Of a stretch of 64,000 nt of DNA, positions 1 to 12,351 are shown piece after piece. A program made the position numbers and the translations under genes. Within the stretch, counting starts at the first letter, position 1. Each line of letters starts with the position of its first letter. The stretch is taken from contig NZ_SJSL01000002.1 of assembly GCF_004331695.1 (NCBI RefSeq), positions 620,001 through 684,000 on the forward strand. Direction: 5' to 3'. The notes under the pieces were generated by a model that saw only the letters and a program-made list of their open reading frames with translations, made no database searches and was not told where the DNA came from. Source of the stretch: Pedobacter psychroterrae (GTDB lineage Bacteria; Bacteroidota; Bacteroidia; Sphingobacteriales; Sphingobacteriaceae).

Positions 1-21
1 ATAATTTTTTTTGCAGTAAAA

Positions 22-37
22 ATGACCAATCGGTCAT
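22..37. promoter_or_regulatory. TetR-type inverted-repeat operator candidate
   Basis: The sequence reads ATGACC-AATC-GGTCAT, two perfect 6-base arms around a 4-base centre, 45 bp upstream of the first gene. A GACC-N4-GGTC core of this kind is typical of operators bound by TetR-family repressors of the NemR sort (family knowledge). A second copy of the core lies at 1292-1303. No tetR gene is in the window, so the regulator is either off the left edge or distant. Confidence 0.5.
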
Positions 38-82
38 AAACGAAATAATTTGAATATTTGACACTTTTAAAAAAACAAAAAA

Positions 83-802
83 ATGAACGATTTACTTCAA
101 TTAGCAGTTGACGCACATGGAGGCATGAAAAGATGGAATGAGCTTTCCGAGGCTTTTGTAACGATGAAGATCGGTGGAGTGCTTTGGGAATCCAAACAGG
201 TACCCGGGTTCGCATCAATCGGCAGAATCAGGGCAAAGCTACATGAGCAGATTTACTTTAACGAGCCATTTTTGAAAGAGGGTCAGAGAAGCCATTTTCA
301 GAACGGAACGATCGCTATCGAGACTCCAGACGGAAGTGTCATCAAAGAGAGAACCCATCCCCGTGAAGCTTTCAAAGGCCACACCATGGAAACCCCTTGG
401 GATGATTTGCATCTGGCTTATTTCAACGCTTACGCTACATGGACCTATCTCACACTTCCTTTTGTGCTGACCTATGAGGGATTTCAGGTTGAGGAAGTTG
501 AAGGCAGAATGGATAATGGAGAAAAATGTCGCGTCCTGAAAGCTACTTTCCCAGATTATCTGGCTTACCATTCAAAAGAGCAGAAATTTTATTTTGGACC
601 GAATGGACTGTTGAGAAGGCTGGATTACGATGTGGAGGTCTCCAAAGGGGCATCTGGCGCTCATTATGTTCACGACTATCAGGAGTTTAACGGGATTATG
701 GTACCTACCAAAAGACTAGTATATCCACCCGATGAGAACAATGATCCGATAAAAGACCTCTTGGTGGTATCGGCAGAACTAACTGAAGTCTCTTTTAAAT
801 AA
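83..802 (+). CDS. LolA-like cytoplasmic protein, 239 aa, function unknown
   Basis: The protein begins with a helix containing AVDAHGG, followed by alternating beta strands that resemble the open-barrel fold of outer-membrane lipoprotein-sorting (LolA/LolB-like) proteins. It has no signal peptide, lipobox or membrane segment, so it probably stays in the cytoplasm and may bind a hydrophobic ligand rather than sort lipoproteins. The ATG at 83 follows an A-rich stretch typical of Bacteroidota leaders. The gene sits 45 bp behind a TetR-type inverted repeat and 15 bp before a secreted NTF2-like gene, so the two are probably co-transcribed. Proteins of this kind often accompany SDR and oxidoreductase genes, as here. 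The fold assignment is by sequence feel, not by a profile search. Confidence 0.55.
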   Translation: MNDLLQLAVDAHGGMKRWNELSEAFVTMKIGGVLWESKQVPGFASIGRIRAKLHEQIYFNEPFLKEGQRSHFQNGTIAIETPDGSVIKERTHPREAFKGHTMETPWDDLHLAYFNAYATWTYLTLPFVLTYEGFQVEEVEGRMDNGEKCRVLKATFPDYLAYHSKEQKFYFGPNGLLRRLDYDVEVSKGASGAHYVHDYQEFNGIMVPTKRLVYPPDENNDPIKDLLVVSAELTEVSFK

Positions 803-817
803 TTAAAGTCAACTAAA

Positions 818-1273
818 ATGAAAAAGACACAAACACTATTGGGCGCTGTTCTAATTTTAGGCTCCCTCACAATTCCCACTGCTCATTTAAATGCACAGAC
901 ACAAATACAAACAAAAAATGCTGCGGTAACACCCGTTTCGGTCATGGATAAAGCCGTATATAAACATTTCGAAGTTTTAAACATTAGTAGTAGTGAGAGA
1001 AGATTAAGCGAAATGGGTAAAATTTATAGTTCGGATTTTCATATAGTAGATACTTTTTTTGAGCATTTCACTTGTAAAGACTTCAACAACGCTGTAAACG
1101 AAATCCATAAAAAATTCCCAGGTCAGAATTTTACGCTAGTGGAGGTTAAAACACTTAACAATGTAGCCAGGGCCACCTGGAAATTAGGTGACGCGCTGAA
1201 CGGAGAAAATATATTCTTGTTCAAGGACGGTAAGATCACTGATATCATCGCATTTGTATCCGTAAATAAATAA
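818..1273 (+). CDS. Secreted SnoaL/NTF2-like protein
   Basis: The 151-residue product starts with a Sec signal peptide (MKKTQTLLGAVLILGSLTIP, likely cleavage after HLNAQ near residue 27). The mature part has an N-terminal helix pair, a YSSDFHIVDTFFEH segment and C-terminal beta strands ending in GKITDIIAF. This is the layout of small SnoaL-like/NTF2-superfamily cone-shaped domains, which bind or turn over small ligands. The best guess is a periplasmic ligand-binding or accessory protein. It follows the upstream gene by 15 bp and precedes an operator-like repeat and an SDR gene. No catalytic residue can be assigned. Confidence 0.6.
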   Translation: MKKTQTLLGAVLILGSLTIPTAHLNAQTQIQTKNAAVTPVSVMDKAVYKHFEVLNISSSERRLSEMGKIYSSDFHIVDTFFEHFTCKDFNNAVNEIHKKFPGQNFTLVEVKTLNNVARATWKLGDALNGENIFLFKDGKITDIIAFVSVNK

Positions 1274-1291
1274 TTTTTTTAAACAAAAAAA

Positions 1292-1303
1292 GACCGAAAG
1301 GTC
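1292..1303. promoter_or_regulatory. Second GACC-N4-GGTC operator candidate
   Basis: GACC-GAAA-GGTC lies 17 bp upstream of the SDR start codon. It has the same half-sites and the same 4-base spacing as the repeat at 22-37, so both transcription units could answer to one TetR-family repressor. The position close to the start codon fits repression by occlusion. Confidence 0.45.
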
Positions 1304-1320
1304 ATAAATAATTCTAAAAT

Positions 1321-2139
1321 ATGTCAAAAATAATCTTGATTACAGGCGCTTCACGTGGATTTGGTAGAATCTGGGCCGAAGAATTTTTAAAGCGCGGCGA
1401 TAAAGTTGTTGCTACCGCCAGGGACATAAATGCTCTGTCAAACCTAAAGGAAATATACGGCGATCTTATTCTGCCACTTGAACTGGATGTCAACGATCGT
1501 AAGCAGGGAATAGACGTTGTAGTAAAGACCAGGGCACATTTTGGTAGGATTGATATATTGATCAATAATGCTGGTTATGGAGTGTTCGGTGCAGTCGAGG
1601 AAACAACAGAAAAGCAGGCACGGGAACTGTTTGAGACGAATTTCTTTGGCCTGTTATGGCTAACACAGGCGGTTCTTCCGGTAATGCGGGAGCAAAAAAG
1701 CGGTCACATTATCCAGGTATCAAGTTTTCTTGGCATAACAACGCTTCCGGCCCTGGGACTTTACAATGCGACAAAATTTGCCGTTGAAGGCCTGAGCGAA
1801 ACGCTTGCATCTGAAGTGAAAGGTTTTGGGATAAAGATATCCTTAGTGGAGCCTAATGGTTTTTCAACAGAATGGGGAAGTGCCTCGGCTGTGCAGACCA
1901 TACCAATGCCAGAATACCAGCCCATCAAGGATGCAATATTCGGTAATCCGAATCCGGATCTTTTCGGGGATCCGAAGGCTACCGCAGAAGCGATTCTGCA
2001 GCTTGCAGATGCGGAAAATCCGCCTTTGCGCCTACTGCTCGGCAAAGTTGCCTATCCGGCAGTCAGGGAAGCGTATCAGCGGAAAATGGACGAGTGGGAA
2101 CAGTGGAAAGAAGTTTCGGATAAAGCACACGGAATTTAA
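1321..2139 (+). CDS. Short-chain dehydrogenase/reductase (SDR)
   Basis: This 272-residue NAD(P)-dependent oxidoreductase shows the classical SDR order: the cofactor glycine motif TGASRGFG at residues 8-15, the NNAGYG motif near 81, a catalytic Ser in QVSSFLG and the YNATK (Tyr-x3-Lys) active site near 148-152. The extended C-terminal segment after the active site is typical of the oxidoreductases often labelled SDR family NAD(P)-dependent oxidoreductase. The substrate cannot be read from sequence. It starts a group with the MDR and hydrolase genes downstream (29 bp to the next gene) and has an operator candidate immediately upstream. Confidence 0.85.
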   Translation: MSKIILITGASRGFGRIWAEEFLKRGDKVVATARDINALSNLKEIYGDLILPLELDVNDRKQGIDVVVKTRAHFGRIDILINNAGYGVFGAVEETTEKQARELFETNFFGLLWLTQAVLPVMREQKSGHIIQVSSFLGITTLPALGLYNATKFAVEGLSETLASEVKGFGIKISLVEPNGFSTEWGSASAVQTIPMPEYQPIKDAIFGNPNPDLFGDPKATAEAILQLADAENPPLRLLLGKVAYPAVREAYQRKMDEWEQWKEVSDKAHGI

Positions 2140-2168
2140 TCATTCAACATTAGATAATATATAGAGAT

Positions 2169-3095
2169 ATGAGAGCTATTGAAATAACAGGACCGATACA
2201 GATCGAGGATATACAAATTAGGGAAATTCAAAAGCCTGCGCCTGCGGGCAAGGAAATACTTGTGAGAATATTTGCGGCCGGAATAAATCCCGTGGACTGG
2301 ATGGCACCGGCTTATAATATGTTCGATGTTCTGGGAATGCCGACACCCTATATCATGGGCAGCGATTTTTCAGGGATAGTGGAAGCTGTCGGTCCGGAGG
2401 TGACAGGGTTTAAAAAGGGAGATGCCGTGTTTGGGACCCTGGAACTTAAAAAACAGGGTTCATTTGCTGAGTATGCAGTACTACATGAAGATCTAGCCAT
2501 TTTAAAGCCTGAAGAGCTTTCCTTTGAAACAGCTGCGGCAATACCTTTGGCTGGACAGACCGCACAGGAGGCTCTGTTTGAAAAGCTTAATCTGAAAAAA
2601 GGAGAAAAGATATTGATACAGGCTGCGGCCGGAGGAGTGGGTCTGTTTGCCGTTCAGCTTGCTCATAGGGCAGGTGCCTACGTGGTGGCGGTAGCCTCAG
2701 CAAAAAATGAGACATTTCTGAAATCACTTGGTGCTGACGAGGTTTTCGATTACCATAATGGCTACCAAGCTTTATCATCTGATTTTGATGCAGTGCTGGA
2801 TAGTGTAGCCTCAGCAGACCAAACTCTGAAACTGGTAAAAAAGGGCGGACGTTATATTTCACTGACGTCAGCACCTGATCAGGATCTTGCAGCTTCTCTT
2901 GGGGTAAGTGCGGGTAACTTTCTTTACCAGCCCTCTTCCGATAGACTTAAGCGGTTGAGTAATCTGATTGCTGCGGGTAAACTGGAAGTAATTCTGGATA
3001 GAAATTTCAGATTCGACGATATCGTCGAGGCTTTGAAATACCAGCAGGCAGGACATAGCCGAGGTAAAAATATTCTTACAATAGGCGCAAAGTAA
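2169..3095 (+). CDS. Zinc-independent MDR, quinone-oxidoreductase-like
   Basis: The 308-residue product has a GroES-like N-terminal half (NPVDWMAP, GSDFSGIVEAVG, GFKKGDAVFG) and a Rossmann cofactor half with the AAAGGVG nucleotide-binding loop near residue 157. The Cys/His zinc ligands of alcohol dehydrogenases are absent, which places it with the NADPH:quinone oxidoreductase/zeta-crystallin-like branch of the medium-chain superfamily. Such enzymes reduce quinones or enones. It lies 29 bp after the SDR and 31 bp before the alpha/beta hydrolase. That tight packing suggests one operon acting on reactive carbonyl or quinone compounds (inference). Confidence 0.85.
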   Translation: MRAIEITGPIQIEDIQIREIQKPAPAGKEILVRIFAAGINPVDWMAPAYNMFDVLGMPTPYIMGSDFSGIVEAVGPEVTGFKKGDAVFGTLELKKQGSFAEYAVLHEDLAILKPEELSFETAAAIPLAGQTAQEALFEKLNLKKGEKILIQAAAGGVGLFAVQLAHRAGAYVVAVASAKNETFLKSLGADEVFDYHNGYQALSSDFDAVLDSVASADQTLKLVKKGGRYISLTSAPDQDLAASLGVSAGNFLYQPSSDRLKRLSNLIAAGKLEVILDRNFRFDDIVEALKYQQAGHSRGKNILTIGAK

Positions 3096-3126
3096 AAAAA
3101 AATAGTCAATTAAAATATAAAAAATA

Positions 3127-3987
3127 ATGAAAACTAGAAAAATTAATTCAACAGTCGTAGGCCACAACCACCAAACAGCACCAACCCAGTTTTTAGATGT
3201 AAACGGAACTGATTTCGCTTACCGTTCTTTTGGCAGGGATAAAGGTATTCCGGTAATCTTCCTGCAACATTTTACTGGTACAATGGACAATTGGGATCCG
3301 GTCCTTACCGACGCCATCGCGCTGCAACACCCAGTAATCCTTTTTAATAATAGGGGAGTGAGTAATTCCAAGGGCACCACGCCCACAACAGTAAGTGAAA
3401 TGGCGCAGGACGCCGTAGCTTTTATAAAGAGTCTGGGATATACAAAAGTAAATCTGCTGGGATTTTCCCTTGGCGGTTTTATAGCCCAGCAGATCGCAGC
3501 CGACTATCCGGATCTAGTGAACAGGCTGATCCTGGCTGGAACCGGACCGATCGGGGGCAAAGCAATAGCGCAGCTGGAATCCTCCTTGGAAAAAGCCATG
3601 GCCGACGGTCCCGAAAGAGTACTTATAAATTTGTTTTTCAGCAAAACGCCGACCAGTATTAAGGCAGGGGAAGCCTTTTTGGCAAGACTTTCGGAAAGAA
3701 AGCAGGATAGGGATCCCCAACTTAGCCAGGAAACATTTGCTAATCAGGCAAAGGCCATTGTGGCTTATGGTTTAGCAGACCATCAAGACTACAGCCAGCT
3801 AAAATCAGTCAGCCAACCTACCCTGATTGTTAACGGGAATGAAGATATCATGGTAGACTCTATCAATTCCTACATAATGCTGCAGAACATTCCCAATTCA
3901 AGACTGTTGATGTGGAGCGATTCCGGTCATGGAGCATTGTTTCAATATAATTTGGATTTTGCAGTTGAGGTTAACGCATTCCTGTAA
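3127..3987 (+). CDS. Alpha/beta hydrolase
   Basis: The 286-residue protein carries an alpha/beta-hydrolase fold with the nucleophile elbow GFSLGG near residue 113 (catalytic Ser). A following acid lies in the VNGNEDIMV strand-loop and a C-terminal catalytic His in SGHGALF. An oxyanion/HG-type segment, FLQHFTGTMDNWD, precedes it. There is no signal peptide, so it is cytoplasmic. The substrate is unknown; relatives include chloroperoxidase-like hydrolases and esterases. It closes the rightward SDR-MDR-hydrolase group. Confidence 0.85.
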   Translation: MKTRKINSTVVGHNHQTAPTQFLDVNGTDFAYRSFGRDKGIPVIFLQHFTGTMDNWDPVLTDAIALQHPVILFNNRGVSNSKGTTPTTVSEMAQDAVAFIKSLGYTKVNLLGFSLGGFIAQQIAADYPDLVNRLILAGTGPIGGKAIAQLESSLEKAMADGPERVLINLFFSKTPTSIKAGEAFLARLSERKQDRDPQLSQETFANQAKAIVAYGLADHQDYSQLKSVSQPTLIVNGNEDIMVDSINSYIMLQNIPNSRLLMWSDSGHGALFQYNLDFAVEVNAFL

Positions 3988-4142
3988 AAATAATATTGGA
4001 ATATAGGAATTCCTTTGGTCCAAACTAGAGAAACCATCATTCCAAATAACCTACTTCCTTTGTTATTTGCAACACTTCATTCGATTCTCGCAATCCCTTA
4101 GCCCATCCAATCCGGATCTTTGTTTAACAAAAACAGAGAAAA

Positions 4143-4496
4143 ATGATAATGATAAGAATTTTTACGGCAGTACTGCTGATTGTGGTGGTCATAATGGGGT
4201 TCAAGCAGGGCATAGCTATGTTCAATGGGAACGAAGTTGTGTTGGAGATGTTCGGTAAGTTCAATTTTAGCAGGTTTTGGGTGAAGGTACTTGGGGGACT
4301 GACCATATTGGCGGTAATAATGGTGCTGTTCCCACAAACTTATGTGGTCGGCAATGTACTGATGGCCTCCCTGATCCTTTTGATCTTGTGCCTCCAACTT
4401 TCAATAATGGATATCAGGGGTGCAATGATCGAGGTACCTTTTCTGTTAATGAATCTTGCACTGATCTATTTTCAGTATCCAACAGTAAAAAAATAG
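4143..4496 (+). CDS. Small four-helix membrane protein, DoxX-like
   Basis: The 117-residue product is almost entirely hydrophobic, with about four predicted transmembrane helices (roughly residues 3-20, 47-64, 69-87 and 97-112) and a short loop FNGNEVVLEMFGKF after the first. Size and layout match DoxX-like membrane proteins of Bacteroidota, which are often found next to AraC or TetR regulators and redox enzymes. It is separated by 155 bp from the hydrolase and by 154 bp from the AraC gene. The family call is tentative because no diagnostic residue is visible. Confidence 0.5.
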   Translation: MIMIRIFTAVLLIVVVIMGFKQGIAMFNGNEVVLEMFGKFNFSRFWVKVLGGLTILAVIMVLFPQTYVVGNVLMASLILLILCLQLSIMDIRGAMIEVPFLLMNLALIYFQYPTVKK

Positions 4497-4650
4497 CACT
4501 TCGACAGCCCTCATTTTCAAATTTATTTAGTCAGCAGCGACAGATGTGGGTTTTGGTTCTAAGGACCAAAGCCCTTATTTCGTTACGGCAATTCATGGCA
4601 GATTGTGTATTACGGAATTACTTGGTAATTTTAACAAGAATTCGACGCGC

Positions 4651-5592
4651 ATGAAAGAGGAAAAGTTAAGGATCTTCAATGATCTCCATGAACAGTACAA
4701 GCATCTTGGATTACCTGTCTCGCTAATCGACCGACAGAGCGATTTTACCATCTTCAACCTTGCGGACATCAGGGATATGATTACCATTCGCCCGCCCATC
4801 AGCAGGCTGAATTTTTTTGTGTTTGCATTTGTGAAGAACGGTCAGGGGAACTACACGATCGATGAACAGCGTTTCGATATCCGTCCCAGTACTGTCTATT
4901 TTACCAACCCCGGACACTCTCGATCATTCGATTGGGCAGAGGTCGGGGAGGTTTATCTGATCACCCTTAGCGAATCCTTTTTAAAGGAGAATGTGCATGC
5001 AGATATATTCGAGGAGTTTCCCTTTCTGCTGGCCGAAACCTTTCCGGCACGGGTGCTGGCCCCCGAGGTATTTGAAGAATTTGAACGACTTTACCTACAG
5101 ATTCACAAAGAGTACCTGTCCCATTCGCCATTTCGCAACCGCCTTATCGGAAATCTTTTTGTTGTGCTGCTGCTGAAGATCAAGGAGTACTTTTGGCTTG
5201 ATTATAATCCCATATACGAGGGCAACAGGAGTTCGCATATCGTAAAGAATTTTAAGAGACTTCTTGAAAAGCACTATCGGGACCTTAGTGGCGGCATGTT
5301 GGATCGTGCCTTCCGTGTACAGGAATATGCGGATGACCAGAACCTGCATCCCAATTACCTCAGCAGCGTGATCAAGGCAAAGACAGGAAAGGCAATTGGC
5401 ACTTGGATAGCGGAAAAGACCATAGCGGAGGCAAAGTCCCTTTTGCAGAATTCATCTATTTCAATCAAGGAAATCAGTTTCAGGTTGGGATTTTCTGAAT
5501 CGGCACACTTTAGCAACTATTTCAAGAAGCACACCAAGATTTCCCCTGCTAGCTTCCGCAGTGAACACATCCTCAAGCTTTCCAAGGGGTAA
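4651..5592 (+). CDS. AraC-family transcriptional regulator
   Basis: An N-terminal cupin-like sensor domain (RFDIRPSTVYFTNPGHSR) is followed by two C-terminal helix-turn-helix motifs of the AraC/XylS family. The second contains SSISIKEISFRLGFSES and HFSNYFKKHTKISPASFR. I use the ATG at 4651 (313 aa) because translation from it begins with a sensible helix. The frame is open 105 bp further back (to 4546), but that extension looks non-coding. The likely targets are the adjacent rightward genes or the convergent SDR operon (inference from position). Confidence 0.88.
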   Translation: MKEEKLRIFNDLHEQYKHLGLPVSLIDRQSDFTIFNLADIRDMITIRPPISRLNFFVFAFVKNGQGNYTIDEQRFDIRPSTVYFTNPGHSRSFDWAEVGEVYLITLSESFLKENVHADIFEEFPFLLAETFPARVLAPEVFEEFERLYLQIHKEYLSHSPFRNRLIGNLFVVLLLKIKEYFWLDYNPIYEGNRSSHIVKNFKRLLEKHYRDLSGGMLDRAFRVQEYADDQNLHPNYLSSVIKAKTGKAIGTWIAEKTIAEAKSLLQNSSISIKEISFRLGFSESAHFSNYFKKHTKISPASFRSEHILKLSKG

Positions 5593-5630
5593 AAACTCTC
5601 CACCTATTTACAGAAATTCCCATAAAAAAA

Positions 5631-5658
5631 ACTGGCATGAATTCTACTTCATGCCAGT
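5631..5658 (-). terminator. Rho-independent terminator of the SDR-DUF1097-SDR operon
   Basis: An 11-bp perfect stem (ACTGGCATGAA / TTCATGCCAGT) encloses a 6-base loop between two convergent genes. On the minus strand the hairpin is followed by seven T residues, the classic intrinsic-terminator layout. On the plus strand there is no T tract, so it mainly serves the leftward operon. Confidence 0.85.
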
Positions 5659-5690
5659 CAAAACAAATAGTTGCCCGCTAATATTTTAGC

Positions 5691-6443
5691 TTAGTTGGTC
5701 GCCCCACCGTTTACCAAAAGGTGCTGGCCGGAAATGAACGAAGAAAGGTCACTTGCAAAGAACTCTGCCGCATTGGCCACATCTTCTACTTCCGCCAAAC
5801 GCCCCATTGGGCAGCTGTCCAACAGTTGCTTACGGAGCTCTGGATAGCTATCGGCTTCCGCAAAGATTCCAGAATGGTCAACGGCGAATGGGATAATCGT
5901 ATTTACCGTAACTCCCTTGTGGCCAATCTCCTTTGAAAGGATTTCTACAAGGTATTTTGGAGTGGTCTTGCTACCTCCATAAACCGCCATTCCTGGGACT
6001 GGATATGAAGTTGTACTTGAGGCGATATAAATGATTCGGCCATTATTGGTTACGCGCTTGGCGGCCTGCTGCATCGTAAAATAGGTGCCTTTGGTATTGA
6101 TGGAAAATACACGGTCGAATTGCTCTTCGGTAAAATCGGTTACCGGCGTTTCTACCAGTTCGATACCTGCATTTGCCACTACGATATCTATCTTGCCGAA
6201 GGTACTGATCGCTTCTGCAAAAAGTCGCTGTACATCTGCTACCTTGCTAACGTCTGCCTTTACGGATATTACCCTTACGCCCATGGCTTTGATGTTGCTC
6301 ACTACTTCGTCTGCGGATGCCTTATCGCGTGAGTAGTTAATGATGATGTCTGCGCCCAATGCTGCATAACGTTCTGCGATTGCTTTACCTAGACCTCTGG
6401 CTGATCCTGTGATCAATGCTACTTTATTTGTTAAATTTGTCAT
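5691..6443 (-). CDS. SDR family oxidoreductase
   Basis: This is a 250-residue classical SDR with TGSARGLG at residues 12-19, VANAGIE near 88, Ser in IASSTTS and YGGSK as the Tyr-x3-Lys pair. The C terminus (ISGQHLLVNGGATN) matches the G-x-x-x-x-V-D/N-G-G ending of FabG-like enzymes. It is the last gene of the leftward operon, 23 bp after the DUF1097 gene. The substrate is unknown. Confidence 0.87.
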   Translation of the reverse strand: MTNLTNKVALITGSARGLGKAIAERYAALGADIIINYSRDKASADEVVSNIKAMGVRVISVKADVSKVADVQRLFAEAISTFGKIDIVVANAGIELVETPVTDFTEEQFDRVFSINTKGTYFTMQQAAKRVTNNGRIIYIASSTTSYPVPGMAVYGGSKTTPKYLVEILSKEIGHKGVTVNTIIPFAVDHSGIFAEADSYPELRKQLLDSCPMGRLAEVEDVANAAEFFASDLSSFISGQHLLVNGGATN

Positions 6444-6466
6444 GATTTGAATAGTTAAAATGTTTG

Positions 6467-6958
6467 TTAATGATTTTGGTTAAGAGAATGGTTGGTTTTT
6501 TGGGCGTTTACTTTTTCTACAGCAGAGTCGTTAAGCCAGGCGAATAAAAACCCAAAGAATAATGGAATGGCTAGTTGTAAGATCGGGAGTGGGGCCAAGG
6601 GTGGATGTACGCCGAATACGACGATCAACCCCAGGAACCACGCCGGAATATTATTCAGCGTTTTTGTTCTGGCGAAATAGGCCAGTGATCCGATAAAGAT
6701 GAACACGGCAATCGGAAAGCCCAAAGTGCCAATCACTTTGCCCAGTACGCCTCCAGTTAGCTGGATCAGCACGCCCATCAGGATGCCAAGCCCTATCTGT
6801 ATGAAGACCTTAAGTGAGGACAATACCGTCTTCCCAAATAGGTAATAGCTTACCCAGGCGATGAACATTACCCACGTTGGCCATGCCATGGCGAAGGATA
6901 TACTTACTGCAACTGCGCCGAACAGGCCGAAAATGATTGCGGTTATAAACGTTTTCAT
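6467..6958 (-). CDS. DUF1097-type inner-membrane protein
   Basis: The 163-residue protein consists of about five or six transmembrane helices starting directly at the N terminus (MKTFITAIIFGLFGAVAVSI) with a short polar C-tail. The AMAWPTWVMFIAWVSYY segment and the FARTKTL...IPAWFLG region are in keeping with DUF1097/YcdZ-like proteins. Function is unknown. It is sandwiched between two SDR genes (51 bp and 23 bp spacers), so all three are probably one transcript. It could move a substrate or product of the reductases, but that is only inference. Confidence 0.65.
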   Translation of the reverse strand: MKTFITAIIFGLFGAVAVSISFAMAWPTWVMFIAWVSYYLFGKTVLSSLKVFIQIGLGILMGVLIQLTGGVLGKVIGTLGFPIAVFIFIGSLAYFARTKTLNNIPAWFLGLIVVFGVHPPLAPLPILQLAIPLFFGFLFAWLNDSAVEKVNAQKTNHSLNQNH

Positions 6959-7009
6959 AAATTTTAAGATTAATGGTTGTGGATTATGATTTGATTATTG
7001 ATTGCGTAG

Positions 7010-7750
7010 TTAGGCCATGGCGCCATTGGCTCCGATATTCTGTGCCGAAATCCATTTGGCATCATCGCTAGCAAGGAAGGAAACAATTTTTGCAATATCT
7101 TCGGGCTCACCGATGCGGTTAAAGGCTGAAAGTGAGGCAAGACGGTCGATAACCTCTTGTGGTTTCCCTTTTGTGAAAAGCTCGGTATTGGTAGGTCCTG
7201 GAGATACGGAATTCACATTTATGCCCCTTGCACCGACTTCTTTGGCAAATACTCGGGTAAGTTGTTCAACTGCGGCTTTCGAAGCTACATAGGTGCTATA
7301 GGTAGGCATCATCACCCGGGTGGTGGTTGAAGAGAAATTAATAATGCTGCCATTGTCGGCAAGCTTGGTAGCTGCTTCTCGCATCGTATTAAAAGTTCCC
7401 TTTACATTGATATCAAACTGACGGGTGAAATCTTCATCGGTTGTATCCTTAAGGAGTTTTGTAATCATGATACCGGCATTGTTAACCAGCACATCGATTC
7501 TTCCATAACGGGCGATGGTAGCATCAAAAAGATTTTTTACCTCGTCAGTTTTGCTCACATCAGCCTTGATGGCAATAGCATCGCCACCGTTTGCTCTTAT
7601 TTTCTGCAACTGCTGCTCAACTGCATTTTCATCTCCCGCAAAATTGATGATTACTTTGGCCCCGCGAGCGGCTAATGTATTTGCAATTGCTGCTCCAATT
7701 CCTCTTGATGCTCCGGTTACTAAGATTACTTTTCCTGTTAAATTTTTCAT
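7010..7750 (-). CDS. SDR family oxidoreductase, FabG-like
   Basis: The 246-residue enzyme shows TGASRGIG near residue 12, DVSKTDEVKNLF, NNAGIM near 90, Ser in NFSSTTT and YVASK, then PGPTNTE, all in SDR order. It resembles 3-oxoacyl-ACP-reductase-like SDRs but lies outside any fatty-acid locus, so FabG activity should not be assumed. It is the first gene of the leftward operon. The two SDRs here differ clearly in sequence, so they are not a recent duplication. Confidence 0.88.
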   Translation of the reverse strand: MKNLTGKVILVTGASRGIGAAIANTLAARGAKVIINFAGDENAVEQQLQKIRANGGDAIAIKADVSKTDEVKNLFDATIARYGRIDVLVNNAGIMITKLLKDTTDEDFTRQFDINVKGTFNTMREAATKLADNGSIINFSSTTTRVMMPTYSTYVASKAAVEQLTRVFAKEVGARGINVNSVSPGPTNTELFTKGKPQEVIDRLASLSAFNRIGEPEDIAKIVSFLASDDAKWISAQNIGANGAMA

Positions 7751-7902
7751 GTTGTTGTTATTTTAAGTTTTTGTTTCTTTTTGATATACCAAAGGTCTAC
7801 TTAAAACAGAGGGGAAAAATGCAGGATCCAAAGCATTATATGCAAAATTCAAAGACTATAATTTTAAAAGTCAAATTCAGCTGATCTGAATAAAAATCTA
7901 CC

Positions 7903-8019
7903 ATGAAAATGGGTACTATAACAAAACGATGCGGCAAATCAATATCATGCTGGCGCAGGTCTTATATGAATAAGAGAGGTGAATATGAGGTTTGCCAAAA
8001 ATGCAATGATGGCAATTAA
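7903..8019 (+). CDS. Possible 38-aa zinc-ribbon-like small protein
   Basis: An ATG-initiated 38-codon frame encodes a basic peptide with two cysteine pairs: C10/C16 and the C-terminal EVCQKC (C31/C34). The second pair is the knuckle of a zinc ribbon, preceded by RGEYE. It lies alone in a 717-bp gap on the strand of the downstream kinase. It could be a real small metal-binding protein or the tail of a lost larger gene. The first pair's five-residue spacing is atypical, which lowers confidence. Confidence 0.3.
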   Translation: MKMGTITKRCGKSISCWRRSYMNKRGEYEVCQKCNDGN

Positions 8020-8027
8020 ACCTTGAA

Positions 8028-8111
8028 TTATTCCAAAGGATCTTCGTCAATCTTTGAAATTCTAGTCAAGTCATCAAGTAAATTTCTTGAAAAGTACACA
8101 GTCTCTGGAGC
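8028..8111. repeat. 84-bp imperfect direct repeat, copy A
   Basis: This segment matches 12022-12105 in the same orientation with 11 mismatches over 84 positions and no gap. Read on the minus strand it encodes a peptide tail, YFSRNLLDDLTRISKID, ending in a TAA stop, and the other copy encodes almost the same tail. Many differences are synonymous or conservative. Both copies therefore look like the 3' end of one protein-coding gene that was duplicated and truncated. The pair brackets the kinase/regulator genes. Confidence 0.8.
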
Positions 8112-8112
8112 C

Positions 8113-8142
8113 AATGCCCTTCACGATATCGTGAAGGGCATT
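8113..8142. terminator. 30-bp perfect palindrome, terminator-like
   Basis: AATGCCCTTCACGAT is followed directly by its exact reverse complement, so the transcript could form a 13-14 bp stem with a minimal loop. It is followed on the plus strand by TTCTATTTTT. It abuts the end of repeat copy A by one base. A terminator is the simplest reading; a recombination or protein-binding site is possible because the palindrome has no loop bases. Confidence 0.55.
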
Positions 8143-8467
8143 TCTATTTTTAGCTGATTTTCAAATCGTTGCATAGTGCAAATGGAGACCGATTTTTGGT
8201 TCGAGCCCAGTGTCCGCACCCTAACGGTGCAAACGTTAATCAACTTCTGAAAGTGAAGTATAACCTGTTGCTTTTAAATTGTTTATGATTTAAGCTGTGA
8301 GTTTTTTTGGTTCGATGTCTATAATTTTTCTGTATTGTAGATTTCTTGTGATCCAATTTAGAAAAAATAATTTACTAGGGATGTTTTGATGGACTCAATG
8401 TGGCCCGCTACAGTAATTTTAATTTTTAAATAATATAACCTATCTTCAAGGGTTACTAAAACCAAAA
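8143..8467. other. Gene-free leader upstream of the kinase, with a tRNA-T-arm-like segment
   Basis: No convincing coding frame is visible here. Around 8197-8220 the sequence GGTTCGAGCCCAGTGTCCGC looks like the T-arm and 3' acceptor strand of a tRNA, but no cloverleaf precedes it and no proper CCA end follows, so it is not an intact tRNA. It could be a fragment left by tRNA-targeted integration. The A/T-rich stretch 8400-8460 probably contains the kinase promoter. Confidence 0.4.
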
Positions 8468-11400
8468 ATGATTAATATAAGAACAAGCCAAAATCGATTT
8501 GTTTTCTTTGCAGCTACCCTTGTGATAGGCATCGGTGTTTTAGTTATGATTGGCTGGTTTGCCCATATACCCATTTTAACAAGTTTTATCAATGGGTATG
8601 CCACAATGAAAATAAATACGGCATTTGGTCTAATTTTACTCGGCTCAGCCTTATTAATTCAAATTGTTCTTCAAAACAAGAAATGGCTATTTTTAGCTAG
8701 AATATTTTCTTTACTAACCATAGCGTTAGGTACTTTAACGTTAGCGCAAGATATTTTCAATATAAACCTGAAGTTAGATGAGATTTTTACTTCAGACTTT
8801 GATGCAACACTAAAAGGTAATCCCAACCCTGGGCGCATGTCGCCCATAGCGGCTATCTGTTTCGTTGCAATGGGAACATTTCTACTAGCTCATCTGTCCC
8901 AGAAAATTATATATAGATTAATCGCACAATGGTCAACACACCTTGTGACCTTCTTCACATTCCTTGCAATAGTTGGCTATTTATTTAATGTTCCGGTCTT
9001 TTATAAACTGTCATTTCTAACGTCAATGGCAGTTCATACTTCACTTTGTTTGTTTGTCCTCTCTATCTCCGCCTCTTTAATTCATCCGTCATTGGGTATA
9101 AGCGGAATTTTTACAGGTACTCGGCTCGGCAATGTTATGGCAAGGAAACTATTCATGCAAATGACGATCGCCGTTCTAATTCTCACTTTTTTAAGAATAG
9201 AATCCGATCGACTTAAATTGGTTAGTGTAGAATTTGGCATTGTGTTATTTGCCATATCCTTTATTATGGTTTCACTATTCTTGATATGGCGAACAGCAGA
9301 GGCCATGAACAAAAGTGACTTAAAAAAATCAAAAGCTGAATTCAACTTTGCCCAGATTAAAGCTTTTTTGAATTCTACGCCAGATCCAATTTTAATCCTC
9401 AATTCGTCTGGAATCATACAATTAGTTAATGATCGTACAGAAATGGTTTTCGGCTATTCAAAAGACGAACTTATTGGTAGAAACATTAACATCTTAGTGC
9501 CTGAACGATTTAGGAATAGTCAATCAATGACCAAACTACTTGATTCGGTAATTGATGAAAGCGAACTTTTTGCCTTGTCTAAGGATGGATTAGAAATACC
9601 AGTTGAAGTAAACCTTAGTCCATTTGAAGCTAACGAACTAGACTTTATATCAGCCTCCATCAGAGATGTATCAGAGCGCAGAAAAATAATGTCTGCACTA
9701 AAGACCAGCGAGAAGCGAAATAGAATATTCATTGAACAATCACCAAATGCGATTGCAATGTACGATGCGGATATGCAGCTAATGGCAGCCTCCAAGAAAT
9801 GGATTACTGACTATCAAATTGAAGATAGAGAAATTATTGGCCGTACCCATTACGAAATATTCCCAGAAATTGGAGAAGATTGGAAGAAAATCCATAATGA
9901 TTGCTTGAAGGGAGCTATACACACTTGTGATGAGGCGGAATTTGAAAGAGAAGATGGGTCGACACAGTGGATTACCTGGGATGTAAGACCTTGGTATGCA
10001 TCTGAAGACCATATTGGAGGTATCATTATGTACACTGCTGATATCACAGTTTCGAAACAAAAAGATGCTGAACGAAGGAAAATTGAAAACATCCTCGAAA
10101 GAAGTAATCAGGTTGCAAAGATAGCCCACTGGGAGATTGATGCCAAAACTGGAAAAGTTTCTTGGAGCAAGCTTGCAAATGAAATTTATGAGTTACCCGA
10201 TAATTATCAGCCCGATAGGGAGTCTATTCTTAAGTTTTATAAAAAAGGCCCAAACTTAGACAAATTATTACTGGCAGTAGAAGAAAGTAAGAAGAAGGGT
10301 AAATCTTACGATTTAGAGGTAGAGCTCGTAACGGCAAAAGGGAATAACAAATGGATCCGTATTATTGGTGATGCCGAATTCAAAAAAGGATTTTGCATCA
10401 GACGGTTAGGTATTTTTCAAGATATCACGAAGACGAAAAAGATTGAGGAAGATATTATCCGAATAAATGAAGAGTTGAATGTAGTTCTCAATTCTGGTCA
10501 CGTTTCCATTATTGGCACCGACCCGAATGGAGTAATTACCCATTTCAGTAGTGGTGCAGAAAAATTGCTATTGTATCAAAAGTCTGAAATGGTTGGTATT
10601 CAATCCCCAGAAATTCTTCATCTTCAAACGGAGGTTGAATTAAGGGGAAGCGAACTAAGTACACATTACGGAAGAGAAATTAGCGGCTTCGATGTTTTTA
10701 CCGAACCCGTACGAACAGGGAGCTTTGACTCCCATGAGTGGAGTTACGTACGAAAAGATGGGACGATCTTTCCTGTGCAATTAGTTGTTACTGCACTAAG
10801 AAATGGTAATGGTGAAATCTATGGATTTTTGGGGGTCGCCACAGACATTAGTGATATTAAGAAGGCAGAAAAAGAATTAGTACAATTAATGGAAATAACT
10901 AACGGTCAGAATGAACGATTAAAAAACTTTGCCCACATCGTATCCCATAACCTAAGATCGCATGCCGGCAATTTTGCAATGATGCTTGATTTGTTAGCAC
11001 AAGAGGAACCGGAAATTGCGGAGCATGAATATATCAAACTTGTAAAAAAAGCCTCAGACAACCTCACAGAAACAATTGCAAATTTAAATGAGGTGGTGCT
11101 GATGAATACTGCAGTAGAACAAAACCTAGTTCCGATCGAACTAAAGCACGCCGTATCCGCTGCCATTCAAAATGTGAGCATCTTAATCAAAGATGCTGAA
11201 ATTACAATCACCAATGATGTTGAAGATGAGGTAAAGGTTTTGGGAGTTTCTGCATATATTGACAGTATCGTACTGAACTTTATTACCAATGGCATCAAGT
11301 ATAGAGCTCTTGATAGGCCTGGAATAATCAAATTATCCTCGCACAAAGAGAATAATTGGGTGGTACTTACAGTAGAAGATAATGGGGTAGGTATTGACCT

Positions 11401-11584
11401 CATAAAGCATGGAGCAAAATTATTTGGGATGTACAAAACCTTCCATCCAAACCCAGATGCTAGGGGAATAGGCCTTTTTATTACAAAAAACCAAGTAGAA
11501 GCATTGGGGGGAAAAATAGATGTTAGCAGTGTTGTGAATGAGGGAACCATATTTAAAATATTTTTAAAACATGAAAAAAGTTGA
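8468..11584 (+). CDS. Multi-PAS membrane sensor histidine kinase
   Basis: The 1038-residue protein starts with a hydrophobic sensor of about eight transmembrane helices (residues about 10-275). Four PAS-type domains follow (approximately 295-400, 425-535, 550-655 and 670-800). The dimerization helix carries the phospho-acceptor His827 in VSHNLRSHAGN. The C-terminal HATPase has an N-box (NFITNGIKYRA), a G1 box (VEDNGVGIDL) and a GIGLF G2 box. There is no receiver domain, and the receiver is supplied by the overlapping downstream gene. The ligand is unknown; the HNLR core is common in Bacteroidota kinases. The two-gene unit lies between two copies of an 84-bp repeat. Confidence 0.9.
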   Translation: MINIRTSQNRFVFFAATLVIGIGVLVMIGWFAHIPILTSFINGYATMKINTAFGLILLGSALLIQIVLQNKKWLFLARIFSLLTIALGTLTLAQDIFNINLKLDEIFTSDFDATLKGNPNPGRMSPIAAICFVAMGTFLLAHLSQKIIYRLIAQWSTHLVTFFTFLAIVGYLFNVPVFYKLSFLTSMAVHTSLCLFVLSISASLIHPSLGISGIFTGTRLGNVMARKLFMQMTIAVLILTFLRIESDRLKLVSVEFGIVLFAISFIMVSLFLIWRTAEAMNKSDLKKSKAEFNFAQIKAFLNSTPDPILILNSSGIIQLVNDRTEMVFGYSKDELIGRNINILVPERFRNSQSMTKLLDSVIDESELFALSKDGLEIPVEVNLSPFEANELDFISASIRDVSERRKIMSALKTSEKRNRIFIEQSPNAIAMYDADMQLMAASKKWITDYQIEDREIIGRTHYEIFPEIGEDWKKIHNDCLKGAIHTCDEAEFEREDGSTQWITWDVRPWYASEDHIGGIIMYTADITVSKQKDAERRKIENILERSNQVAKIAHWEIDAKTGKVSWSKLANEIYELPDNYQPDRESILKFYKKGPNLDKLLLAVEESKKKGKSYDLEVELVTAKGNNKWIRIIGDAEFKKGFCIRRLGIFQDITKTKKIEEDIIRINEELNVVLNSGHVSIIGTDPNGVITHFSSGAEKLLLYQKSEMVGIQSPEILHLQTEVELRGSELSTHYGREISGFDVFTEPVRTGSFDSHEWSYVRKDGTIFPVQLVVTALRNGNGEIYGFLGVATDISDIKKAEKELVQLMEITNGQNERLKNFAHIVSHNLRSHAGNFAMMLDLLAQEEPEIAEHEYIKLVKKASDNLTETIANLNEVVLMNTAVEQNLVPIELKHAVSAAIQNVSILIKDAEITITNDVEDEVKVLGVSAYIDSIVLNFITNGIKYRALDRPGIIKLSSHKENNWVVLTVEDNGVGIDLIKHGAKLFGMYKTFHPNPDARGIGLFITKNQVEALGGKIDVSSVVNEGTIFKIFLKHEKS

Positions 11585-11963
11585 AATTGCCTGTATCATA
11601 GATGATGATCCAATATATATATTCGGTACACGAAGAATAATGGAACTATCTAATTTTTGTGAAACCTTTATGATTTTTCATAATGGCAAAGAAGCATTAG
11701 ACCGATTAACCGCCATCATCTCGATCGGCGAAAAGCTCCCAGATATTATCTTGCTCGACCTTAATATGCCTATTATGGATGGCTGGGAATTTCTGGACGA
11801 ATTCACTAAAGTTCCATCTAAAAAGGAAATTCTAATTTATATTGTAACTTCATCTATCGATCCTGCAGATATTGAGCGTGCCAAAAAATACGATGATATT
11901 AACAATTATTTAGTTAAGCCAATAACAATGGCAACATTGAAAGAGCTCTTTAATGGATTTTGA
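11571..11963 (+). CDS. Single-domain response regulator (CheY-like)
   Basis: The 130-residue protein is one receiver domain: acidic triad DDD at 11-13, phospho-acceptor Asp63 in LLDLNMPIMDG and the conserved Lys116 in LVKPI. It has no output domain, so it must act by protein contact or phosphotransfer. Its ATG lies 14 bp inside the end of the kinase gene, a strong sign of translational coupling. The kinase is the obvious phosphodonor. Such stand-alone receivers paired with PAS kinases are common in Bacteroidota (family knowledge). Confidence 0.9.
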   Translation: MKKVEIACIIDDDPIYIFGTRRIMELSNFCETFMIFHNGKEALDRLTAIISIGEKLPDIILLDLNMPIMDGWEFLDEFTKVPSKKEILIYIVTSSIDPADIERAKKYDDINNYLVKPITMATLKELFNGF

Positions 11964-12021
11964 AAGCTAACATTAACAGAATAGCTTTAAAACTTAATAA
12001 TGATTTTGTGCTATTGTTTTA

Positions 12022-12105
12022 TTATTCCAAATAATCTGCATCAATCTTTGAAATTCTAGTCAAATCATCAAGCAAATTTCTAGAAAAATACACAGTATCG
12101 TGAGC
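12022..12105. repeat. 84-bp imperfect direct repeat, copy B
   Basis: This is the partner of 8028-8111. The minus-strand reading ends in the same LLDDLTRISKID tail and stop codon, with changes confined mostly to the last few codons and third positions. An in-frame stop lies just before the conserved part, so this is a fragment, not a gene. It runs into a 30-bp segment (12102-12131) that recurs at 22960-22989. Confidence 0.8.
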
Positions 12106-12131
12106 TCACAATCAGTGAGTTAGCCCCACTC
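12102..12131. repeat. 30-bp dispersed repeat, copy 1
   Basis: This stretch matches 22960-22989 at 27 of 30 positions in direct orientation, beginning GAGCTCACAATCA. In both places it reads in one frame as ELTI-N/S-ELAPL. It contains the small inverted repeat CTCAC-AATCA-GTGAG. In the second copy the 3' half is also a hairpin arm, which is lost here. Confidence 0.65.
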
Positions 12132-12351
12132 CATGATGGATAGTAATGTACCCTAATCTAATACAATGTTGGTAGTTGATGCATTGATTAAAGCAAATAG
12201 AACATTCGACTTACTATTGTTTCCTAATAATGTACATACTTTTGGAGCATTCGATTTTTACATGACACGAAGAAGATGGGATTATTTTGTAACCAATCTG
12301 TTAAACGCTACGCCTCCTAAAGATTACCAAATGGGAGGTGCAAGGAATTAA
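12124..12351 (+). pseudogene. 3' remnant of an S9-family (DPP IV-like) peptidase gene
   Basis: The reading frame gives the C-terminal end of a prolyl-oligopeptidase-type serine peptidase: MMDSNVP around the catalytic-Asp loop, then MLVVDALIKANRTFDLLLFP, the His loop NNVHTFG and the tail RRRWDYFVTNLL. An in-frame TAA at 12154-12156 interrupts it where homologues have a short linker, and a TAG precedes it at 12121. All upstream parts, including the nucleophile Ser domain, are missing. The ATG at 12166 would start a 61-residue peptide but is internal to the family. It is a decayed gene end next to dispersed repeats, consistent with a rearrangement breakpoint. Confidence 0.75.

Follow-up and report, generated by a model that had tools for sequence, protein, structure and literature searches.

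A histidine kinase gene and a response regulator gene of Pedobacter psychroterrae are very probably the cargo of a 4-kb integrative element (positions 8107-12105) that has no integrase of its own and belongs to a type in which large serine integrases (LSRs) target tRNA-Asn genes. Positions are those of the window, the whole 64,000-nucleotide stretch of this genome (G000) that was analysed. The segment is bounded on the left by a module termed B and on the right by one of two copies of an 85-nt repeat termed A (Table 1). A is the tail of an integrase gene that is split on insertion beside a tRNA, and the kinase/regulator pair is therefore most likely the cargo of an element without its own enzyme.

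Table 1. Features of the window around the kinase/regulator segment.
Feature	Position	Strand	Remarks
Right-hand part of 22.3-kb island	1-8026		Oxidoreductase and regulator genes; aligned to P. frigiditerrae at 91-98%
Left repeat, right end A of 22-kb island	8027-8111	-	27 integrase tail codons from 8111 to 8031, then stop; core 8106-8111
Module B, putative left end of kinase/regulator element	8107-8233	+	Hairpin GCCCTTCACGATATCGTGAAGGGC; ends tRNA-T-arm-like
GGTTCGA motif	8198-8204	+	Second copy at 8309-8315; possible recombinase recognition repeat
Histidine kinase, membrane-bound, PAS-domain, 1038 aa (cargo)	8468-11584	+	From domain matches
Single-domain response regulator, 130 aa (cargo)	11571-11963	+	Identity to the closest relatives in the genus 53% or less
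Right repeat, right end A of kinase/regulator element	12021-12105	-	Core 12100-12105
Outer flank, cut-off left-end hairpin	12106-12132	+	Of a kind seen after tRNA-Asn fragments at other elements

A repeat search recovered the two direct copies of A at 87% identity (74 of 85 bases) and a spacing of 3994, and a recount in the 84-bp frame of the initial annotation returned the same 73 of 84 identical positions. With the right copy as query, the genome yielded the copy itself (E 1.9e-38), the left copy (E 2.1e-23) and a next match at E 0.008, which excludes chance for the repeat pair. The genome also has a third copy, in a decayed state (74%), at G000:C8:606618-606703, which is 21 kb upstream of the left one and beyond the window edge. 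The left copy is 97.6% identical to a Pedobacter frigiditerrae copy and the right copy 89.3% identical to a Pedobacter planticolens copy, against 87.1% to each other; as each is nearer to the copy of another species than to its partner, the two are not sisters. Across the genus, the right copy matched 28 of 145 genomes at E 0.01, and 23 copies remained at E < 1e-6 in 17 genomes, P. psychroterrae included, one of these copies (in G089) being only 41 bases long. The outer flank differs at every copy. In GTDB, the encoded tail occurs at 17 loci (13 in Pedobacter, two in Aquirufa and one each in Mucilaginibacter and UBA7688); it was found in no plasmid or phage and confirmed in no viral contig, and the region of B plus A matched no plasmid or phage either. 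The initial annotation had weighed against its own reading that the repeats might be common dispersed elements unrelated to the pair: they are indeed dispersed, and elsewhere they end unrelated cargo. It had also described them as flanking exactly the pair, which they do enclose; because module B stands between the left copy and the kinase gene, the pair is not all that they flank.

As had been proposed, both copies encode the same C-terminal tail on the minus strand. This frame starts at the core and stops after 27 codons, giving APETVYFSRNLLDDLTRISKIDEDPLE and AHDTVYFSRNLLDDLTRISKIDADYLE, each followed by a stop. Among 22 copies (19 of 24 aligned copies and three from other genera, after five copies with indels were dropped), the synonymous share of single-base codon differences was 0.55, compared with 0.26 +/- 0.06 and a maximum of 0.47 in 300 column shuffles, related copies not being independent of each other. 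Twenty of the 22 copies have no stop within the tail frame, and third positions are the most variable, so A is derived from coding sequence. A Pfam search with the tail peptide gave no family. No body upstream of the tail was detected by tblastn in 399 family genomes, where tail-only frames reached at most 121 aa, or in the upstream frames at four non-Pedobacter loci of the 17 in GTDB. ARAGORN and Rfam returned nothing over the window, and A and tRNA-Asn have no more than about 6 bp in common. A transposon end was also tried as an explanation of A and rejected.

The parent gene was recognised at tRNA-Asn genes. Four ORFs, three with 482-502 open codons and a shorter one (loci L264, L265, L266 and L270), read into tRNA-Asn in the frame of A, and this frame enters the tRNA 3' end at the Ala-Pro codons where A begins. 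All three of the ORFs scanned scored above the cut-off for Pfam Resolvase and Recombinase domains, and one also for the zinc ribbon; in NCBIfam, the LSRs match CcrB and XisF distantly, with scores far below the family cut-offs. The last codons of these LSRs are antisense tRNA (...CLPTQAP SAGLEPATL). The repeats are thus truncated ends of one gene, as had been claimed, and that gene is an LSR whose C-terminus they encode. Traces of the junction between LSR and A persist in two genomes. The C-terminal LSR remnant FFIALIYQINSKLWAKKRGQATVLPCLPIM of P. frigiditerrae (32 aa, 69%, E 4.6e-8) continues in frame into A, APEAVCFSRNLLDDLTRMAKIDEDPFE, and in G136 a decayed LSR remnant with a stop directly precedes A. 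A 5.6-kb segment of Mucilaginibacter oryzae has A at one end and, on the same strand, the C-terminal remnant of an LSR at the other, with no tRNA-derived codons after the remnant; outside this segment, a MobB-type relaxase and a BfmA-type mobilisation protein are encoded (L192:2141-3742). A contiguous tRNA-Asn element with both an intact LSR and A was not found. Behind the LSRs of G043, G045 and G058 there is no A-like tail within about 59, 59 and 38 kb, respectively, and in G017 the LSR contig stops 263 bases behind the gene and A is on another contig. The one LSR of P. psychroterrae at E 1e-40 or better sits at tRNA-Arg rather than tRNA-Asn; its 113-aa neighbour, taken by eye for a mobilisation protein, gave no match and was dropped.

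Module B was matched in 29 of the 145 genus genomes, and its hairpin folds at z -6.18. At least seven of the 30 B loci listed (L101, L102, L104, L106, L108, L111 and L129) directly follow a tRNA-Asn 3' end, either whole or a fragment, ending in GGGAGC. Related copies follow tRNA-His and, in two cases judged by eye, an apparent tmRNA. B shows no similarity to LSR genes. Conversely, tRNA-Asn was present in six of 20 stretches around copies of A, each time pointing to A from 0.9 to 5 kb away, which together with the position of B identifies A as the far end of segments that start at tRNA-Asn. Several arrangements were seen beside these sites. The intact tRNA-Asn of P. psychroterrae is followed by an AbiE pair, a 42-base tRNA-Asn fragment, B and another oxidoreductase island (G000:C1:151292-153368, L132). 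Many Pedobacter genomes have tandem tRNA-Asn pairs about 140-160 bases apart (L140, L141, L076 and others), with elements inserted behind or between them. Other short C-terminal-like tails, beginning FVADLKRLADLK and HFVDELIELGGF, lie beside B copies at tRNA-His-type ends (L107, L112, L115 and L128) and, judged by eye, are probably the tails of tRNA-His LSRs.

The left window copy of A belongs to a different element from the kinase/regulator pair. A region from position -14152 to 8109 of the window (G000:C8:605848-628109) aligns to P. frigiditerrae (G061:C6:1169440-1141498) in pieces of 96.5, 91.5 and 98.0%, starting at a B copy outside the window and ending at A; the 98% piece spans window 4045-8109, with similarity lost where the left repeat ends. 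On the left, the outer flank is a tRNA-Asn fragment in P. psychroterrae but another A in P. frigiditerrae; on the right, it is B plus the kinase in the former and unrelated DNA in the latter. A common island with its edges at B and A but with differing outer flanks indicates the same element in two places. Within it, a short-chain dehydrogenase pair occurs in two copies that are 73-76% alike (window 5680-7750 and G000:C8:610328-611876).

Like the 22-kb island, the kinase/regulator segment has kept B and A as its two ends. Between them, no integrase or transfer gene is present, and the only credible genes are those of the kinase and the regulator, for which no relative within the genus exceeds 53% identity. 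The G+C content of the segment is 36.4%, compared with 41.6% for the window. A tblastn search found no LSR gene in the window, the weak C-terminal match (27%, E 0.003) falling within the kinase/regulator genes. Both window cores are altered (TGGAGC and GTGAGC, compared with GGGAGC). Positions 12021-12132 match L067 at 87.5%, and the bases that open after tRNA-Asn fragments in L215 and L207 are the same as at 12106. A short plus-strand coding stretch, labelled an S9-peptidase-like fragment in the initial annotation, lies at 12170-12350. No empty site of the kinase element was found; a search by way of the chloride-channel gene that stands beside A in two genomes matched this gene in just 10 of 145 genomes.

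These arrangements suggest how such units could arise. When a complete element is circular, its LSR gene would cross the attachment core and continue to the end of the 27 tail codons that A encodes. If the core then recombined with the tRNA-Asn 3' end (GGGAGC), the gene would be split: the LSR body would stay beside the tRNA and acquire a new C-terminus from antisense tRNA (...AP followed by SAGLEPATL and a stop), and the native tail (...AP followed by ETVYFSRNLLDDL) would be left at the far end as A. Elements without an LSR body but with A and another left end, B, could then stack in tandem, B and A presumably serving as recombination sites for an LSR acting in trans. The window would then hold the point where two such elements meet: the 22-kb island, which ends at 8111, and the kinase/regulator element (8107-12105), which presumably moved as a unit. 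The exchange of tails may also alter LSR activity, and it opens a direct way to test by what means a serine integrase might distinguish its integrated from its free state. A broader proposal, which we regard as tentative and on balance doubtful, is that in Bacteroidia a clade of LSRs specialised for tRNA 3' ends swaps, on integration, a conserved native C-terminus for a tRNA-encoded one as a built-in switch between an integrating and a resident form. Such integrases would gather units that have only a tail, the kinase/regulator element among them, into tandem rows of cassettes, so that a serine recombinase would underlie a system resembling an integron.

Elsewhere, the segments between tRNA-Asn and A carry an AbiD gene (P. 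boryungensis, G016), a class II pAgo gene with SIR2 (G106) and a gene for a beta-lactamase-fold hydrolase (G153), and Gabija genes lie upstream of A in P. planticolens (G086), where no left end was located. The AbiE genes of P. psychroterrae and MzaB of G101 lie outside A-ended elements and were not counted as their cargo. The conserved orphan tail can serve as a sequence tag for finding integrase-less islands, some of them with defence genes, and for fixing their bounds to the base.

Four other readings of the window were weighed. In the first, B and A are correctly assigned as ends, and the 4-kb segment is a deletion remnant of a larger LSR element or array that was never mobile as a unit. 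The changed cores, the third decayed A copy in the same genome and the lack of an LSR body in the window would all fit, but B and A also bound other short segments with intact single genes, such as those for AbiD in G016 and pAgo with SIR2 in G106 (the latter with tRNA-Asn and A), and we consider this reading unlikely, though a serious contender.

It is improbable that the repeats are attachment sites of a tyrosine integrase, although this is the usual enzyme at tRNA genes. The site of A-ended elements is indeed shared by elements that have a tyrosine integrase and ends repeating 43 bases of tRNA-Asn, as at L226 (G086:C2:1464000-1483900); G086 has two such integrases. Those ends carry 43 bp of tRNA, however, compared with about 6 bp in A, no tRNA 3' fragment recurs as a direct repeat at the far end of the window element, and LSR C-termini run into A, which was rejected as a tyrosine attP arm. 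In addition, four genomes with A or B (G016, G141, G157 and G093) have just two tyrosine recombinases, which from their size and score are probably XerC/D.

The initial annotation had seen in the repeats the end of one gene, duplicated around an insert as a scar of integration or unequal recombination that brought in the kinase pair. The repeats are direct, similar and coding-derived, which would fit such a scar, but each copy is nearer to those of other species, the left one belongs to a separate island, and the searches of family genomes and GTDB described above found no host gene with this tail. Integration and truncated gene ends are therefore the parts that stand, the repeats being the right ends of two different tandem elements, and a duplication scar is highly improbable. 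Least credible are true integron cassettes with A as attC: small cargo units do stand in tandem, each closed by a repeat, but A has no single-strand fold (z 0.00, -0.40, -1.04 and -1.13) and is coding-derived, and the associated recombinase is a serine integrase, so that membership is contradicted and a cassette-like working is possible at most.

Returning to the LSR-derived element that we favour, a sister family shows the intact form of such a gene. Its 36-aa tail was found in 52 of the 145 genus genomes (112 rows at E 0.1, 81 below 1e-6). In two of the 81 rows, both from G081, the tail ends a frame of more than 500 aa, whereas no other frame exceeds 101 aa. The two G081 LSRs align at 72-76% with the split LSRs of tRNA-Met genes along 505-508 residues, and divergence sets in at the core. 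The sister tails are coding-like as well (33 distinct tails, 0.635 compared with 0.243 +/- 0.057). On a single contig of G008, a split LSR lies at tRNA-Met (183857-185377) with tails at 165106 and 160446, one copy being 20 kb from the LSR in the same orientation. G050 has five tails in a row over 13 kb and a place where the cut-off C-terminus of one LSR continues in frame as a tail; it was rejected as a model array and is cited for these two features only, since its LSR, of another subfamily, stops about 350 bases before tRNA-Met and is unsplit.

The LSR query had matches in 87 of the 145 genomes of the genus and in 62 of 395 from the class. The fractions that follow come from the 60 best LSR loci examined and describe a clade rather than all LSRs, because the query itself was taken at a tRNA and several tRNA-Met loci are near-identical. 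A tRNA lies at the LSR 3' end at 28 of 31 genus loci (the best 30 and the P. psychroterrae LSR), comprising His (10), Met (7), Asn (3), Glu (3) and one each of Leu, Asp, Lys, Pro and Arg, and the two 3' ends overlap in antisense at 27 of the 31. At L276, where a stop interrupts the gene, 19 nt separate its end from the tRNA; L264 and L284 meet tRNA fragments, and L280 has the native tail. Class-wide, 24 of the best 30 loci overlap a tRNA (two of the 24 being Pedobacter), five have no tRNA and one was unrecognised by the script. The 60 bases after the tRNA fold at z -2.5 to -9.0 (mononucleotide shuffles) and carry a T run at all 28 genus loci; at the class loci, z is below -3 in 24 of 24 and a T run is present in 22. 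A terminator-like hairpin thus follows the tRNA, mostly inside the LSR gene, and part of an integrase gene doubles as the terminator-like hairpin of a tRNA.

SCC elements use Ccr serine recombinases, accrete at the 3' end of a conserved gene and have integrase-less relatives; the elements described here resemble them in all three respects and differ in target. With integrons they have in common short cargo units closed by a repeat, but the recombinase is of another class and A is not a folded attC.

In the passages cited, the Islander study of 2014 states that only tyrosine integrases were known to target tRNA genes (PMC4383910), whereas across the whole class searched here, the serine integrases that score best lie at tRNA 3' ends. 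Serine integrases were reported in 12 of 197 Bacteroidetes IME clusters (PMC6907783, in the part cited). Further passages cited are from PMC12884075, PMC12424338 and PMC6764341. The open-licence PMC literature yielded no description of a tRNA-targeting LSR clade with tail-ended integrase-less units and no paper that joins Pedobacter, a serine recombinase and a tRNA, although later island databases may hold such cases unstated.

Integrases split by their own att site are already known. According to the passages cited, attP lies within the integrase gene in phage Mx8 intP and in SSV-type integrases (PMC4383910, PMC4701971), and Mx8 integration swaps 112 C-terminal residues for 13, lowering activity (PMC4701971); the placing of att inside the gene is shared with tRNA LSRs, but these enzymes are tyrosine recombinases. 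The streptococcal rumA ICEs have their att site inside a serine integrase gene, as tRNA LSRs do, so that the excised form encodes another C-terminus, but their target is a protein gene and the passages cited describe no tail-ended integrase-less units (PMC4701971). In the terms of these systems, the window element is not an autonomous LSR element, as it has no LSR gene, yet its right end is an LSR gene tail; the antisense 3' overlap with a tRNA is a feature of its relatives and not of the element itself. CIMEs, in the passage cited, have lost integration and transfer genes, keep attL and attR and stand in tandem with relatives through accretion (PMC5704250). Segment 8107-12105 likewise has both ends, B and A, no integrase or transfer gene inside and a tandem neighbour, and it differs from CIMEs in that its conserved att half is the C-terminal coding sequence of an integrase.
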